Of a stretch of DNA of 8,988 bases, positions 1,311 to 8,786 are shown piece by piece. Positions within the stretch are counted from its first letter, which is position 1; every line of letters begins with the position of its first letter. Origin of the DNA: Bacteroidota bacterium (GTDB lineage: Bacteria > Bacteroidota > Bacteroidia > NS11-12g > UBA9320); assembly GCA_003485825.1 (NCBI GenBank), contig DNHN01000150.1, forward strand, positions 1-8,988, read 5' to 3'. The notes beneath the pieces are model-generated. The model had not been told where the DNA came from. It saw nothing but the letters and a program-made list of their open reading frames with translations, and made no database searches. The position numbers and the translations under genes were made by a program.

Positions 1311-1373
1311 CTATCTTTGGTTAGCTGCTAGAATTATCAATAGTACACAAAGTCCAAACAAGACCCCCATCAT
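1311..1373 (-). CDS. 20-aa hydrophobic micro-peptide coupled to the MazG gene
   Basis: The MazG stop and this start share a base: TAATGATG, with TAA at 1375-1373 and ATG at 1373-1371. The frame ends with TAG at 1313-1311. The predicted peptide is MMGVLFGLCVLLIILAANQR, a near-perfect short transmembrane helix with a polar/basic tail. There is no strong independent Shine-Dalgarno site at ideal distance (AGG lies about 14 nt upstream), so re-initiation after MazG would be the route. The alternative is that this is a chance ORF. The stop/start overlap, the clean hydrophobic composition and the close fit to the next gene (8 nt gap) argue for a real micro-gene. Confidence 0.5.
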   Translation of the reverse strand: MMGVLFGLCVLLIILAANQR

Positions 1374-1708
1374 TAGCGGTTATCGCCTGATCCTTGAAGT
1401 GTTCCTCGCTTTGCTCGTTCCGATAGTTTGTATAGATTTTTAGCAGCAATATCATTAAGATCCATTGCTGTGTCAGCTTCTAGATAATGTGCAAGCACTG
1501 CAATATACCACAGTACATCACCAAGTTCGTCTGCAATACCACTATATGAGTTACCATCACGAATGCATTTTTTAATTTTATTTGCAACTTCTCCAGCCTC
1601 ACCACATAGTCCGAGACTTAAATATGCTATTGCTACAGTTTGGTCTTCATCTGGAAAGATTGCAGTTTCTAGTGCTTTTGTTTGATATTGATTCATATAT
1701 ATTGTCAT
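1373..1708 (-). CDS. mazG: MazG-like nucleoside triphosphate pyrophosphohydrolase
   Basis: MazG-type enzymes hydrolyse NTPs or dNTPs to NMP and pyrophosphate in the cytoplasm. Phage versions are thought to tune nucleotide or alarmone pools during infection. The frame extends to 1756, but the supported start is ATG 1708-1706: GAGG lies about 10 nt upstream and the ATGA overlaps the previous stop. This gives 111 residues. The all-alpha metal-binding signature is present: GEAGE at 36-40 (E37, E40), followed by KIKK, then DELGD at 60-64 (E61, D64) leading into VLWYIAVLAHYL. Length fits a single-domain MazG-like protein rather than the two-domain bacterial MazG. The precise substrate cannot be read from sequence. 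It lies between a 72-aa gene and a coupled 20-aa peptide. Confidence 0.85.
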   Translation of the reverse strand: MTIYMNQYQTKALETAIFPDEDQTVAIAYLSLGLCGEAGEVANKIKKCIRDGNSYSGIADELGDVLWYIAVLAHYLEADTAMDLNDIAAKNLYKLSERAKRGTLQGSGDNR

Positions 1709-1923
1709 TCGCAAGTTACCTCTTCTTGTGTTTCTATCCAGACTTTCGCACCACATGGCAAAGGTTTATCAGGACTATACACAATAGTGCATGGTCCATC
1801 TATTTTAACTTTGTTTGTGTAAGTGTTTGATTTATAGGTTTTCACAGTCAAGACAGGATCTATTGAACCCGTCTTGCTGTTGCTTTTTATTATGTGTTGA
1901 TTAACGTGTATTATAGTTTTCAT
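1705..1923 (-). CDS. 72-aa small phage protein, probably beta-rich
   Basis: ATG 1923-1921 overlaps the stop of the upstream gene (TGATG), and its own stop overlaps the MazG start (ATGA), so all three are probably translationally coupled. The product begins MKTIIHVNQHIIKSNSKTGS and contains LTVKTYKSNTYTNKVKIDGP and VYSPDKPLPCGAKVWIET. It alternates strands of Val/Ile/Tyr with turns, and looks like a compact beta-barrel or sheet protein. Similar small proteins are familiar from marine phage genomes as uncharacterised ORFs, but I cannot attach a function. Its position next to MazG and the Gp88-like gene suggests an early accessory role. Confidence 0.8.
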   Translation of the reverse strand: MKTIIHVNQHIIKSNSKTGSIDPVLTVKTYKSNTYTNKVKIDGPCTIVYSPDKPLPCGAKVWIETQEEVTCE

Positions 1924-3934: not shown

Positions 3935-4003
3935 TTATGGTCGTTTGAGTATTACAGCTATGAGAACATATATTGCCATAGCTAGATATATTATAAATGA
4001 AAT
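3935..4003 (-). CDS. Putative 22-23-aa membrane micro-peptide (non-ATG start suspected)
   Basis: A short frame ending at TAA 3937-3935 encodes a hydrophobic helix, ISFIIYLAMAIYVLIAVILK, followed by RP. The only ATG (3979) lacks a ribosome site and would give 14 residues. A good AGAGG at 4016-4012 stands eight bases before an ATT at 4003-4001, which could serve as a rare start. The composition matches the other micro-membrane peptides here. The call is uncertain because ATT initiation is rare and the frame is short. Confidence 0.3.
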   Translation of the reverse strand: MSFIIYLAMAIYVLIAVILKRP

Positions 4004-4024
4004 ATTAATTGCCTCTAGAATTTT

Positions 4025-4041
4025 GAGTGCGCTTTGTCGGT
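4025..4041 (+). repeat. GC-rich repeat, copy 3 (core AGTGCGCTTTGTCGGT)
   Basis: Third copy of the repeat seen at 102-123 and 136-157, in the same orientation and nearly 4 kb away, again in a non-coding stretch followed by hairpins. Conserved core: AGTGCG, then two or three variable bases, then TTGTCGGT. Confidence 0.65.
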
Positions 4042-4055
4042 CCTCGCCAAGTCAT

Positions 4056-4228
4056 ACTAAAAAATCTTTAAGAGATTTTTTAGTTTCTTAAAGTTCCCGA
4101 TAGGGTACTTTTCTTTTTAAAATATAGATGTATCCGAAGGATGCAATCTTCTTAAATTCGCCCCCCGTGGGCGAATTGCTAAAAGTCTCCTTGAGGACTT
4201 TTTTATAATCGTATCCCCTCTTGGGGAT
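4056..4228. other. Array of six consecutive hairpins
   Basis: No gene is seen here, but nearly every base can fold. Stems: 4056-4067/4073-4084 (12 bp perfect), 4090-4098/4103-4111 (one T-T mismatch), 4126-4135/4139-4149 (one bulge), 4155-4163/4169-4177 (9 bp perfect, loop CCCGT), 4181-4187/4196-4202, and 4213-4218/4223-4228 (6 bp, loop TCTT). A seventh, longer hairpin follows at 4249-4280. Linkers repeat TTCTTAAA at 4085, 4149 and 4233. Some act plausibly as bidirectional terminators, but so many in a row exceeds what termination needs. Other options are RNA-processing sites, a stable non-coding RNA or a replication-associated structure. Confidence 0.65.
4181..4204 (+). terminator. Terminator-like hairpin with T tract
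   Basis: AAAAGTC and GACTTTT pair around TCCTTGAG, and the 3' arm runs into TTTTTT then ATAATC. The A/T-symmetric stem could work on both strands, better on plus. It is part of the hairpin array. Confidence 0.45.
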
Positions 4229-4237
4229 TCCTTTCTT

Positions 4238-4280
4238 AAAAAAAATAGATCCCAAGAGAACCTTTCAGTTCTCTTGGGAT
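4238..4280 (-). terminator. Strong rho-independent terminator, minus strand
   Basis: A perfect 13-bp stem pairs 4249-4261 with 4268-4280 around a 6-nt loop. On the minus strand it is followed by CTA and eight T (complement of 4238-4245). It would end the transcript of the SSB gene and the 4281-4461 element. It is poor on the plus strand, where no T run follows. Confidence 0.85.
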
Positions 4281-4461
4281 TTAATTACATTTGTGGATCT
4301 AAGTTAATCTTATGTGTTCCAGAGAGTCTACTAACTTAAATTCTTTTAGCTACAGACTCACACGCAGATCCTCATCTGGAAAGAAGGCACCTAGAACGGC
4401 TAATATCTCATTCAAAAGATAAACAGCGGGGAGTGTGACTTAGATCCACAAATATAATTAA
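4281..4461. ncRNA. 181-bp inverted-repeat element; candidate structured RNA
   Basis: 4281-4304 and 4438-4461 are 24-bp inverted repeats with one mismatch, enclosing 133 bp. The interior folds further into three arms: 4314-4363 (GTGT/ACAC plus GAGTCT/AGACTC plus CTAA/TTAG), 4365-4378 (CAGAT/ATCTG, loop CCTC) and 4399-4427 (GCT/AGC and TATCT/AGATA). A closing stem with three arms is the form of a multibranch RNA. On the minus strand it lies just after the SSB stop and directly before the strong terminator, as a 3'-end small RNA would. A small inverted-repeat insertion is the alternative, but no target duplication was seen. It matches no RNA class I know. Confidence 0.5.
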
Positions 4462-4501
4462 TGTTGAGCAGTTTATAGATATGCTCAGATCTTAAGACGT
4501 A

Positions 4502-5002
4502 TTAGAATAAATCGGCAGCTTCATTTGGACTATCAGTGGGTGTAATAGAACCACCACCAACAATATCAAATTGCATTTCGTTAGCACTACCAGTGTACTC
4601 AACTAAGTCTGTTACTTGAACAGCTGTTAGTGAACTGAAGATACCTTTACGTCCAGCTGTATCGTATGCCAATTGGTACAATATAACATTGATAGTAGAA
4701 CCATTACCGATTTTACTTGCATCTATGTTTTTATTATTACCATCAACAACCCTAGGTGGACCATTAGGCTCACCATTTGCTCGTAGTTCATTACGCTTTA
4801 AGGATACGTACTTGATACCATCTGCATCTGTTTTGACATTTAGGTGATTATCTTCAGCATACTTTGCAGCTTCTGCTGTTTTGAATTTTGCTTTACATTC
4901 GTACTGTCTTTTTCCTGGAGTTAAGCCCTCTTTTGGAGTGACAAACCTAGGGAAGTCGCAAGTTACATCTTCAAGTTTTAGATTACGTGGAGTGAATTCC
5001 AT
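4502..5002 (-). CDS. Single-stranded DNA-binding protein, gp2.5-like
   Basis: The 166-aa product likely coats ssDNA during phage replication and recombination. ATG 5002-5000 has AAAGGAATATAACTATG. The protein shows the pattern of phage gp2.5/OB-fold SSBs: an N-terminal strand region FPRFVTPKEGLTPGKRQYEC, KYVSLKRNE at 64-72, PPRVVDG at 82-88, the SKIGNGSTINVILY core at 96-109, and GRKGIFSSLTAVQVTDLVEY at 117-136. The C-terminus is acidic and ends in an aromatic residue (NEAADLF), the usual protein-interaction tail of SSBs, after a short flexible Gly/Ser/Thr/Pro linker. The gene stands apart from its neighbours with its own leader and is followed by the inverted-repeat element and a terminator. 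Assignment is by motif, without alignment. Confidence 0.75.
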   Translation of the reverse strand: MEFTPRNLKLEDVTCDFPRFVTPKEGLTPGKRQYECKAKFKTAEAAKYAEDNHLNVKTDADGIKYVSLKRNELRANGEPNGPPRVVDGNNKNIDASKIGNGSTINVILYQLAYDTAGRKGIFSSLTAVQVTDLVEYTGSANEMQFDIVGGGSITPTDSPNEAADLF

Positions 5003-5079: not shown

Positions 5080-5184
5080 TTACTTATTAGGACGATTTCC
5101 TATAAGTTCCTGATAGTGATCCCAAGCATACCATATGCAAAAGATCATCCAACCTGTAATGAACAGCCACTCTAGCCAGAACAT
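5080..5184 (-). CDS. 34-aa Trp-rich single-membrane-segment peptide
   Basis: The start at ATG 5184-5182 shares a base with the stop of the upstream 36-aa gene (TAATG), and AGGA lies about 11 nt before it. TAA at 5082-5080 closes the frame. The peptide begins MFWLEWLFITGWMIFCIWYA and ends with a hydrophilic WDHYQELIGNRPNK. It is one transmembrane helix unusually rich in Trp (five) with a charged tail, as in small phage membrane proteins such as holin-like or superinfection-exclusion peptides. No homology is claimed. Codon-scale coupling and a sensible topology make it a likely real gene. Confidence 0.6.
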   Translation of the reverse strand: MFWLEWLFITGWMIFCIWYAWDHYQELIGNRPNK

Positions 5185-6027: not shown

Positions 6028-6049
6028 AGTTAACTCCTTTCAAGAGTTT
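6025..6049 (-). promoter_or_regulatory. Repeated ribosome-site cassette, copy B
   Basis: Minus-strand AAACTCTTGAAAGGAGTTAA then CTATG, before the 68-aa gene. Near-identical to copy A, and it also overlaps the end of the NADAR coding region at 6040-6049. Confidence 0.75.
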
Positions 6050-6426
6050 CTTATTTGCATTAATATCTGAGGGAACTGTTTCTTCCACACACCACGATCT
6101 TGCGTATGTGTTATGGTTTCATTACCAGTATCTCTAAGAGCTTTACGAGATTTAGGATTCTGAAGAAAGCTTTTCCTCATTATTTTATACATAAGTAATA
6201 TATTCCAGTTATTCTTGGTTTTAGTTCCAAGTTTACCAACGTGTTTTGTTCCAGCTTTATCCCATCTTTTATTATAAGTAGCTATGTCAAATTCACCACT
6301 TTTCCAAGATTGATAAGCGTGTTCTACACTTTGGTATTTATTACCAGCATCATCGGTGAATGGACGTAAAGCTAAGTTACTCAGCTCACGACATTCATCA
6401 GTACTGTACCATATGTTTATAGGCAT
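6040..6426 (-). CDS. NADAR-domain (YbiA-like) protein, possible anti-defence glycosidase
   Basis: NADAR proteins act on ADP-ribose-linked or related N-glycosidic substrates. Bacterial and phage members are reported to remove ADP-ribose from guanine in nucleic acid, reversing DarT-type toxins. Start ATG 6426-6424 follows cassette C, giving 128 residues. Family motifs in order: IWYSTDECRELSNLALRPF at 5-23 (LSN), DDAGNKYQSVEHAYQSWK at 25-42 with the conserved Glu of SVEHA (E35), KAGTKHVGKLG around 57-67, MRKSFLQNP at 83-91, and TGNETITHTQDRGVWKKQFP at 100-119. Length is slightly short of the usual 140-160. It is the first gene of the leftward block behind the divergent control region, as expected of an early-expressed counter-defence gene. 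Confidence 0.8.
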   Translation of the reverse strand: MPINIWYSTDECRELSNLALRPFTDDAGNKYQSVEHAYQSWKSGEFDIATYNKRWDKAGTKHVGKLGTKTKNNWNILLMYKIMRKSFLQNPKSRKALRDTGNETITHTQDRGVWKKQFPQILMQIRNS

Positions 6427-6446: not shown

Positions 6447-6612
6447 CACATTATTCTTCTAAGATCTGGAGCCTGCCGACAGATCCCAGACTTAACAGAC
6501 AGAGATCAAGTTAGTGTCTACCTTTACAGTTGCTACCAGAGCTATCTGATCTATCAGAACTCTAAGAGAAGTACTATACATATAGATAACTTAAGGGTAG
6601 GGTAAGGGAACT

Positions 6613-6636
6613 CTCCCTATAAGGAACTTAGAGAAC
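6613..6636 (-). promoter_or_regulatory. Phage-type promoter motif, leftward
   Basis: Minus-strand TTCTCTAAGTTCCTTATAGG then GAG. It shares 20 bases (6617-6636) perfectly with the motif at 8762-8781. The TATAGGGAG end matches the initiation region of T7-type promoters, placing a start near 6617 and a 190-nt leader before the NADAR gene. Orientation fits the leftward genes. Confidence 0.6.
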
Positions 6637-6796
6637 ATGATCCCCACAGTACCTCTTACAGAATCTTACAGCACATCACTACTCCCGCTAGACTCTATGT
6701 GATCACATTCCTTTAGAATCCCTTAGAGAGCCTCTCAGAACCTTTAAGACTCTCAGGGAGTCCCACAGTATCTACACTGATTAGATCACTGAGAGA

Positions 6797-6818
6797 GTCT
6801 CTAAGGAGTTAATAGGGG
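6797..6818 (+). promoter_or_regulatory. Weaker phage-type promoter motif, rightward
   Basis: TCTCTAAG-GAGTT-AATAGGGG keeps the CTCTAAG box, the 5-bp spacer and the ATAGGG end of the consensus but differs in the spacer. It points towards the terminase. It could be a degenerate second promoter. Confidence 0.35.
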
Positions 6819-6940
6819 GGTACAGAAATAAATAAGGGTATAGTGATAATAAATAGTTATTCTCATGTCTCCTTAAGCTCTCAAGGGGGTATACAAAACC
6901 CCTACAGATACATACAATTCTACAAAATACTACAATATAT

Positions 6941-6962
6941 CCTCTAAGTCCCTTATAGGGAC
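6941..6962 (+). promoter_or_regulatory. Phage-type promoter motif for the terminase block
   Basis: CCTCTAAGTCCCTTATAGGG then AC matches the 8764-8783 copy at 17 of 20 bases. A start at the first G after TATA (6958) would leave a 26-nt leader with the terminase ribosome site. It includes the small hairpin GTCCC/GGGAC. Confidence 0.6.
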
Positions 6963-6983
6963 AATGTAACACAGGAGATAGGG

Positions 6984-8636
6984 ATGGATAACAAGGAGAT
7001 AATGTCTCTTCTTAATGAAAAAGAGAAAAGGAATAAACTAAAGGGGTATGAGAAAGACTTCTCCTCCTTTGCCCAGGAACAAATCAAGATAATAACTAAG
7101 GATACTAGTGTAGGCTTCATACCTTTTAAGTTCAATGAGTGTCAAGTAAAGATTACAGAGGCTTTAGATGAGCAATTCAAGAATACTGGTAGAGTTAGAG
7201 CTATTATCCTAAAGGCTAGGCAGCAAGGTATCTCTACATACTGTGCTGGTAGGGTCTTTTGGAAGTCTTACTTCTCCCCACACTCTAGATCTGTAGTCAT
7301 GGCACATGATTCTGCTACATCTGATGCTTTGTTTAGTATGTCTAAGAACCTTATCAGGAACATGGAGGGTAACTTAGTACCAAATGAGATCACATCTAAC
7401 GCTAAAGAGATTAAGATCCAGTCACCTGCATATAAAGATAAGGATGCTGTAGGCTCTTACAGGCTATATACAGCTGGATCCCCTGAAGCAGGTAGGGGAA
7501 CTACACCAACCATAGCACATCTCTCAGAGATTGCCTTCTGGACTCACGATGAGAAGATATTAGCTGGTTTATTCCAAGGTATATCACAAGCAGAGGGTAC
7601 AGAGGTTATCCTAGAGTCTACAGCTAATGGTGCTCAAGGAGAATTCTATAGATTATGGAAGGGTGCTGTTGCAGGGGAGAACGAATACTTACCAATATTT
7701 TTACCGTGGTATATAACTCCAGAATATAGACGTACAGCACCTGAAGGTATGGAGTTAATGAAGGAAGAAGAAGAGCTAGTAGAGAACTATGGTCTAGATT
7801 ATGATCAGATATACTGGAGGAGACTAAAGATTGCCGAAGGTGGTAAGCTTAAGTTTCAACAGGAGTACCCTGCTACTGCAGATGAAGCTTTTATTGTGTC
7901 TGGTTCTAATGTATTTAACATTGAAAGATTAAACTCTCTAATACCTATGGCAGAACAGAGGCGTAGTGAGTGGGATCCTTACAGTAAGATGTTTGATGAA
8001 AACAAAGAAGGTAATCTTTCTATATATGAGTACCCTAAGTGGGAAGAACCCTATGTTATTGGGGCTGATGTCTCTCTTGGGGTAGGTCAAGACTACAGTG
8101 CTGCAGTTGTTATGAATAATAGCTACGAGATTGTAGCTGTCTATAGGAATAATAGGATTGATCCAAGTTTATGGGGAGAATTACTTTTTTATCTAGGCAG
8201 ATACTACAACAATGCTTTCTTAGCAGTAGAATCTAACTCAATGGGAATAGCTACGCTACAAAAACTAGAACAAATGGGTTATCTAAACCTATATAAACAA
8301 ACTAAGATGGCTAATGTGTCTAATGAAGAAGGTATGCGTCTAGGTTTTAGAACAACCTCTGCATCTAAACCAGTAATCATAGGGAACTTAAAGAATCTTA
8401 TAGATAACGAAGACATTATGATACCATCTCCTATATTAATTAGGGAACTAAAAGATTATATCTCCACTGCAAGTGGGAAAACTGAAGCTGCTCCAGGATG
8501 TTATGATGATACAGTCATATCTCTAGCGATATGTGCAGAAGTATTACGTACACACTGGGACAAATTAAACACAAGGAATGTATCATGGAGAGAAAAGATA
8601 TTAGATTTCGAACCAGACGAGACTATGTGGATATGA
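6984..8636 (+). CDS. terL: Terminase large subunit (DNA-packaging ATPase/nuclease)
   Basis: The 550-aa protein powers DNA packaging into procapsids and cuts concatemeric DNA. Start ATG 6984 has ACAGGAGATAGGG. ATPase domain: variant Walker A KARQQGIS at 77-84, Walker B IAHLSE at 177-182 with catalytic Glu 182, and coupling motif ESTANG at 211-216. RNase H-like nuclease domain: IGADVSLGVGQDYSA with D362 and D370, VESNS with E416, and CYDDTVISLAICAE with D508/D509. All acidic residues expected of an active nuclease are present, and length is typical of TerL. No small terminase gene precedes it within the window; it would have to lie elsewhere. The C-terminal coding end overlaps the next small gene. 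The KARQQGIST type of Walker A is shared by several marine phage terminases, as I recall. Confidence 0.95.
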   Translation: MDNKEIMSLLNEKEKRNKLKGYEKDFSSFAQEQIKIITKDTSVGFIPFKFNECQVKITEALDEQFKNTGRVRAIILKARQQGISTYCAGRVFWKSYFSPHSRSVVMAHDSATSDALFSMSKNLIRNMEGNLVPNEITSNAKEIKIQSPAYKDKDAVGSYRLYTAGSPEAGRGTTPTIAHLSEIAFWTHDEKILAGLFQGISQAEGTEVILESTANGAQGEFYRLWKGAVAGENEYLPIFLPWYITPEYRRTAPEGMELMKEEEELVENYGLDYDQIYWRRLKIAEGGKLKFQQEYPATADEAFIVSGSNVFNIERLNSLIPMAEQRRSEWDPYSKMFDENKEGNLSIYEYPKWEEPYVIGADVSLGVGQDYSAAVVMNNSYEIVAVYRNNRIDPSLWGELLFYLGRYYNNAFLAVESNSMGIATLQKLEQMGYLNLYKQTKMANVSNEEGMRLGFRTTSASKPVIIGNLKNLIDNEDIMIPSPILIRELKDYISTASGKTEAAPGCYDDTVISLAICAEVLRTHWDKLNTRNVSWREKILDFEPDETMWI

Positions 8637-8761
8637 TGGAACTGGAAGATGAGTTCTGTGAGATAGTCATACAACATTGGATGGATGGTAAGGTTCCTCA
8701 CGATATGGTAAACATAAACGAAGAGAATGAATACGCAAGGGTATACTATGGTTATGCCTAG
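8585..8761 (+). CDS. 58-aa small protein overlapping the terminase end
   Basis: ATG 8585 is preceded by AAGGAATGTATC, a good ribosome site, giving 58 residues and a 52-nt overlap with the terminase in another frame. The alternative is ATG 8633, which overlaps the terminase TGA (ATATGATG) and gives 42 residues, MMELEDEFCEIVIQHWMDGK onwards; coupling favours that one. The common part is acidic and helical, with DGKVPHDMVNINEENEYARV and a Tyr-rich end. From 8585 it gains a basic front, ERKDIRFRTRRDYVD. No family recognised. In phages the gene after TerL is often structural or small regulatory. Confidence 0.6.
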   Translation: MERKDIRFRTRRDYVDMMELEDEFCEIVIQHWMDGKVPHDMVNINEENEYARVYYGYA

Positions 8762-8762
8762 G

Positions 8763-8786
8763 TTCTCTAAGTTCCTTATAGAGAAT
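8763..8786 (+). promoter_or_regulatory. Phage-type promoter motif after the terminase block
   Basis: TTCTCTAAGTTCCTTATAGA then GAAT. It is a perfect 20-bp inverted copy of 6617-6636 and points rightward to the gene at 8870; predicted start near 8781. TTCTCTA and TAGAGAA also form a small hairpin. Confidence 0.6.

Follow-up and report, generated by a model that had tools for sequence, protein, structure and literature searches.

Gene blocks of an uncultured phage known here from contig C336 are preceded by exact copies of a 19-mer, CTCTAAGTYCCTTATAGRG, and we put the probability that this 19-mer is the promoter of a T7-type RNA polymerase (RNAP) encoded by the phage itself at roughly 90%. Judged from sequence, the motif is most likely a predicted promoter of new specificity within a known kind of system. 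This reading is based on the exact copies, on a conservation footprint upstream of the terminase gene, on the RNAP carried by relatives, on the shared orientation of sites and genes, and on motifs that are specific to RNAP clades. The entire promoter set differs jointly with the polymerase.

Motif copies in the window

The window analysed here is the entire contig C336 (8,988 bases), from a 2.1 Mb genome bin. Its genes are phage genes, with a large terminase on the plus strand and a minus-strand block that contains a NADAR-like gene, a Gp2.5-like ssDNA-binding protein, GP88 and MazG. The features referred to below are:

1373–1756, minus strand: MazG-like pyrophosphatase gene (PHROG 229)
4502–5002, minus strand: Gp2.5-like ssDNA-binding protein gene (PHROG 112)
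6040–6426, minus strand: NADAR-like open reading frame, first of the minus-strand block; below the Pfam cut-off; start 191 bases from motif copy 1
6615–6633, minus strand: motif copy 1, predicted to drive the minus-strand block; exact; predicted start 6617; 99% in 15 relatives
6797–6818, plus strand: weak fourth copy of the original prediction, unsupported as a promoter; 4 mismatches; 67% in 15 relatives
6942–6960, plus strand: motif copy 2, predicted to drive the large terminase; exact; 96% in 15 relatives
6984–8636, plus strand: large terminase subunit gene (550 aa; PHROG 2, Pfam Terminase_6C); 63% to phage CRP-7
8765–8783, plus strand: motif copy 3, predicted to drive the portal-capsid block; exact; predicted start 8781

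The original prediction had described three near-identical copies, a constant gap of 5 bases between CTCTAAG and TATAG, and an identity of 20 bases between 6617–6636 (minus) and 8762–8781 (plus). The 19-mer proved to be exact at all three sites, and the gap and the 20-base identity can be read directly in the sequence. Allowing up to 3 mismatches gave 4 matches in the window compared with a mean of 0.01 expected from 200 shuffles. The motif is a contiguous block, CTCTAAGTYCCT-TATA-G, with an AT-rich stretch directly 5′ of the predicted start base. At copy 2 the predicted start is 6958 and the terminase gene is 26 bases further on. In the seven long related records described below, the place equivalent to copy 1 is occupied and orthologues of copy 3 are found behind the terminase and before the portal block. 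The bin holds one more exact 17-mer, on contig C337, with a small-terminase-like gene 69 bases downstream.

The footprint was obtained by aligning the 557-base spacer 5′ of the terminase gene in 15 of 80 terminase loci. Mean identity of these relatives to the window was 61% across the spacer, and the copies at 6615 (99%) and 6942 (96%) are its best-conserved 19-mers; copy 3 (8765) falls outside the aligned spacer.

Two weaker matches were rejected as promoters. The fourth copy claimed at 6797–6818 (plus) still shows 4 mismatches with the variable base taken as N, and its conservation (67% identical, with gaps) is near the spacer mean of 61%. The 3-mismatch match at 5100–5118 (plus) lies among minus-strand genes and has GATAG instead of TATAG.

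The spacer at 6540–6830, between the divergent blocks, is dense in words resembling CTCTAAG and CTYAGAG, and degenerate motif copies occur in the corresponding spacer of two related records (G001 and G004) too. Such richness is what one would cite for chance repeats in a low-complexity spacer, an explanation to which we give almost no weight. It is refuted for the three main copies by the expectation of 0.01 matches, by the footprint, and by a control in which 50 random sequences for each of 7 related records gave 0 motif matches. Chance repeats likely account for the weak fourth copy.

It is also unlikely that the host polymerase, rather than the T7-type enzyme, uses the motif as a promoter through some sigma factor or through a factor made by the phage. 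The motif does stand upstream of genes in the correct direction, and a sigma-70-like site at 6890–6918 is found shortly upstream of the terminase copy. However, the 16 sigma-70-like sites, fewer than the 30 in shuffles, all lie clear of the motif copies, and the motif forms a single contiguous block, unlike a −35/−10 pair; the three copies do not match the sigma-70 pattern (TTGACA, 16–18 bases, TATAAT). The dependence of the motif on RNAP clade, described below, argues further against a host promoter.

Within the minus-strand block, the region at 4000–4500 has few genes and strong terminator-like stems on both strands, with 16 and 14 pairs at 4246–4283. These stems might terminate transcripts from copy 1.

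Polymerases and motif sets of related phages

The original prediction held that the copies are candidate T7-type promoters, that the phage encodes its RNAP outside the window, and that a search should find a T7-like RNAP gene and further copies before other gene blocks. A T7-type RNAP gene is present in all seven related IMG/VR records longer than 50 kb, and clade-A records carry five motif copies each, which supports the promoter reading. Five of the seven form clade A, with terminases 89–94% identical to that of the window, and two form clade B (75–76%). RNAP identity between the clades is 56–57%.

The relatives encode an RNAP of their own, but none of the bin contigs yielded the RNAP gene belonging to the window phage. 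The bin comprises pieces of at least three related phages, with overlapping clade-A versions on C336 and C337 (L007) and a clade-B contig, C285 (L006). The only RNAP in it is that of C285 (5771–8086). With 84–85% identity to clade B but 56% to clade A, this enzyme belongs to another phage and was rejected as the window phage's own. Exact motif B is absent from the bin.

The polymerases have the hallmarks of the T7 type. PF00940 was found in both RNAPs scanned (184 and 183 bits), and the T7 catalytic residues D537, K631, Y639 and D812 are kept in four enzymes, one per clade. A clade-A RNAP model (mean pLDDT 76.6) has T7 RNAP as its best PDB structure matches and gives a query TM-score of 0.69 against the T7 promoter complex 1cez. 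The specificity-loop region, readable in 39 of 51 clade-A and 25 of 38 clade-B loci, is nearly constant in A and shows little variation in B, where it has three extra residues. Assignments of loop residues to bases were rejected, since two alignments place the loop tip differently against T7. A fourth RNAP clade (L404–L408, including G008–G010) is 45–46% identical to CRP-7 and 40–42% to clades A and B; no convincing promoter-like motif was found in the two of its records that were searched.

Autographiviridae have their genes on one strand, in one reading direction. The relatives share with that family an RNAP of their own of the single-subunit kind, whereas both they and the window have genes on both strands, in divergent blocks.

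Motif A, T[CT]TAAGT[CT]CCTTATAG, occurs in five copies in each of the five clade-A records, and these contain 0 exact-form copies of motif B. The two clade-B records contain 0 exact-form copies of motif A and have an alternative motif, TATATACCCCTTATAG, before equivalent gene blocks; in the form [TC]ATATACCCCTTATAG this motif B is present in 7 copies in one record, where one copy is doubled at the contig ends, and in 6 copies in the other. In a blind repeat search, the motif of the respective clade ranked first among noncoding repeats in each of the four A and B records tried. A search with 2 mismatches added a few matches, some of them intragenic, including one A-like match in clade-B G005 and one B-like match in clade-A G004.

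The sites of both clades stand before the same five blocks: the ssDNA-binding-protein block, the large terminase, the portal-capsid block, the small terminase and a ribonucleotide-reductase-domain gene (PF02867; 73% identical between one clade-A and one clade-B record). Clade B has one additional site, before MazG. A conserved open reading frame is found downstream at 36 of 38 sites, the two others being at contig ends and set aside from the orientation count, and all 36 are co-oriented with it; these counts are not independent because the sites are orthologous across records, and a binomial P calculated from them is too strong a measure of the evidence.

In clade B, opposed pairs of motif B occur 65 bases apart (G005 51206 plus and 51271 minus; G006 18696 plus and 18761 minus), one site towards the small terminase and the other towards MazG. 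Transcripts predicted from such opposed sites would therefore overlap at their 5′ ends.

The distribution of sites bears on whether the motif is a repeat that binds a protein for some other purpose, for example as an operator or in packaging or recombination. The large terminase has a copy on either side, the small terminase has one in front of it, and the motif is partly an imperfect palindrome (CTCTA...TATAG), all of which would suit such a role. We nevertheless regard it as very unlikely: copies also precede the ribonucleotide-reductase and ssDNA-binding-protein blocks, 36 of 36 sites are oriented into the next conserved gene, motif B has no corresponding palindrome, and a joint change with RNAP clade is not expected of a binding repeat. 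Sigma-factor sites and packaging repeats alike are disfavoured because the other RNAP clade has another motif before equivalent blocks.

The link between motif and polymerase was also seen in a larger set of 135 RNAP loci gathered by RNAP alone. Motif A was found in 14 of 51 clade-A loci, motif B in 16 of 38 clade-B loci, and motif C, a repeat of phage CRP-7 considered below, in 8 of the 46 others. None of the 135 loci has a motif beside the RNAP of another clade. We then used a pattern permitting mixed A/B forms on 46 longer records, picked from 89. It matched 10 of 27 clade-A records, with A forms only, and 17 of 19 clade-B records, with B forms only. These data support the idea that the T7-type RNAP and its predicted promoters change together, and the positions, orientation, conservation and clade difference of the entire motif set are all observed directly.

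Predicted transcription and RNA leaders

From these features we infer how the RNAP would recognize its sites, where transcripts would start and in what order blocks would be read. Transcripts are predicted to start at the G of TATAG, that is at 6617 (minus), 6958 (plus) and 8781 (plus). By analogy with T7-family enzymes, CTCTAAGTYCC would be recognized by the specificity loop of the RNAP, and TATA would be the stretch that melts. In relatives the sites precede the genes they would drive: the ssDNA-binding-protein block, the genes of both terminase subunits, the portal-capsid block and the ribonucleotide-reductase/virion block. In clade A, the block of thyX, DNA polymerase, primase and RNAP genes would be read first by the host polymerase, because in G007 no site is found directly before the thyX, DNA polymerase, exonuclease, primase and RNAP (27809–30097) genes. 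This first step is not general, since in clade B the MazG site precedes the replication/RNAP block. In G005 that site stands before a block ending with RNAP, and the RNAP could therefore feed its own expression.

The RNA leaders were compared for structure near the predicted starts. Mean leader stem z was −1.5 for 54 distinct clade-A leaders and −0.8 for 62 clade-B leaders, and the anchored stem score in clade A peaks at −1, +1 and +2. At the ribonucleotide-reductase site of clade A the stem begins at +1; four records have G-C as its fourth pair and one has A-U. A stem beginning at +1 fits a start at the G of TATAG, and at this site it recalls the T7 gene-10 leader. Hairpins at the transcript start are not a general rule: they are seen at some clade-A sites, whereas terminase leaders show hardly any structure or none, and the +1 peak is missing from clade B.

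Comparison with known phage promoters

Tested phage RNAP promoters include those of T7 (TAATACGACTCACTATAG), KpnP (AATTAGGGCACACTATAGGGA) and Ro45Iw (ACTTAACTATCACTATAGGGA), as given in two reports (PMC6834552, PMC12272871). Motif A and these T7-like promoters are alike in being a contiguous block of about 20 bases that ends in TATAGGGA, and the systems are alike in having several copies per genome before genes and, in the long related records, a genome that encodes a T7-type RNAP. The likeness of motif A to T7-family promoters lies in TATAGGG and does not extend upstream, where CTCTAAGTYCCT has no long word in common with the T7, KpnP and Ro45Iw promoters. The RNAP of this group is 24% identical to that of T7 and, unlike in T7-like systems, the sites are on both strands. 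Departures from the T7 form are also seen in the single-subunit RNAP promoters of Syn5 (ATTGGGCACCCGTAA) and KP34 (T(A/G)ATGTTACAGGAGTA), and KP34 has four promoters in two unrelated classes (PMC6834552). The Syn5 and KP34 promoters have no evident words in common with motif A or B.

The RNAP promoter of Cronobacter phage Dev-CD-23823, AATGTATACCCCTATATACAC, starts at A; it was tested in vitro and is described as unlike the reported categories (PMC12272871). It is repeated in its own genome. This promoter and motif B have TATACCCCT in common, which we treat as a lead and not as proof of kinship. The RNAPs are only 20–23% identical, and the start is A compared with the G predicted here. The promoter is less like motif A, so the likeness is possibly convergence.

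According to one study, about 40% of RNAP clusters yielded no promoter, and the use of new RNAPs is limited by promoter prediction (PMC11475235). Our literature search found no promoter for this phage group and no paper with any of the three motif strings.

The nearest named phage is Roseobacter phage CRP-7 (MK613349; terminase 63%, RNAP 38%), which is similar to this group in genome size and gene set and is filed only as Caudoviricetes. No relative turned up when genome contigs were searched with the terminase, so a roseobacter host for the window phage would be a guess by analogy with CRP-7 (host FZCC0042). Neither motif A nor motif B was found in CRP-7, and the word 'promoter' is absent from the available portion of its paper (PMC6918029). 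CRP-7 has a repeat of its own, motif C (TATAGTCCCYTATTAAAAG), at other gene borders than A and B and once just before the RNAP gene. Among noncoding repeats, motif C ranks first in CRP-7 (5 copies) and is the sole repeat reported for G011 (3 copies); in G012 and G013 other repeats reach the same number of 3 copies. It includes a ribosome-site-like AAAAGG. Motif C is perhaps a candidate third promoter, in which case CRP-7-like phages would have a third code.

The exact motif-C 18-mer is also present in five motif-A contigs (L188, L095, L130, L148 and L151), 76–77 bases upstream of a motif-A site. In one of these (L188; G001 4957–4976) it stands before the ribonucleotide-reductase gene, and a CRP-7 copy also precedes a reductase gene. 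From the sequence this looks like a piece exchanged with a CRP-7-like phage.

We consider it fairly probable that the codes of two sister lineages within one marine phage group exclude each other, with all five shared promoters rewritten along with the specificity loop, and that CRP-7-like phages perhaps have a third. If so, these phages are a natural record of a T7-type polymerase and its entire promoter set changing in step. With differing codes before equivalent genes in related phages, the evolution of promoter recognition would become directly testable. The group offers two predicted polymerase–promoter pairs that are likely orthogonal, and its best match among named phages is CRP-7 (terminase 63%).
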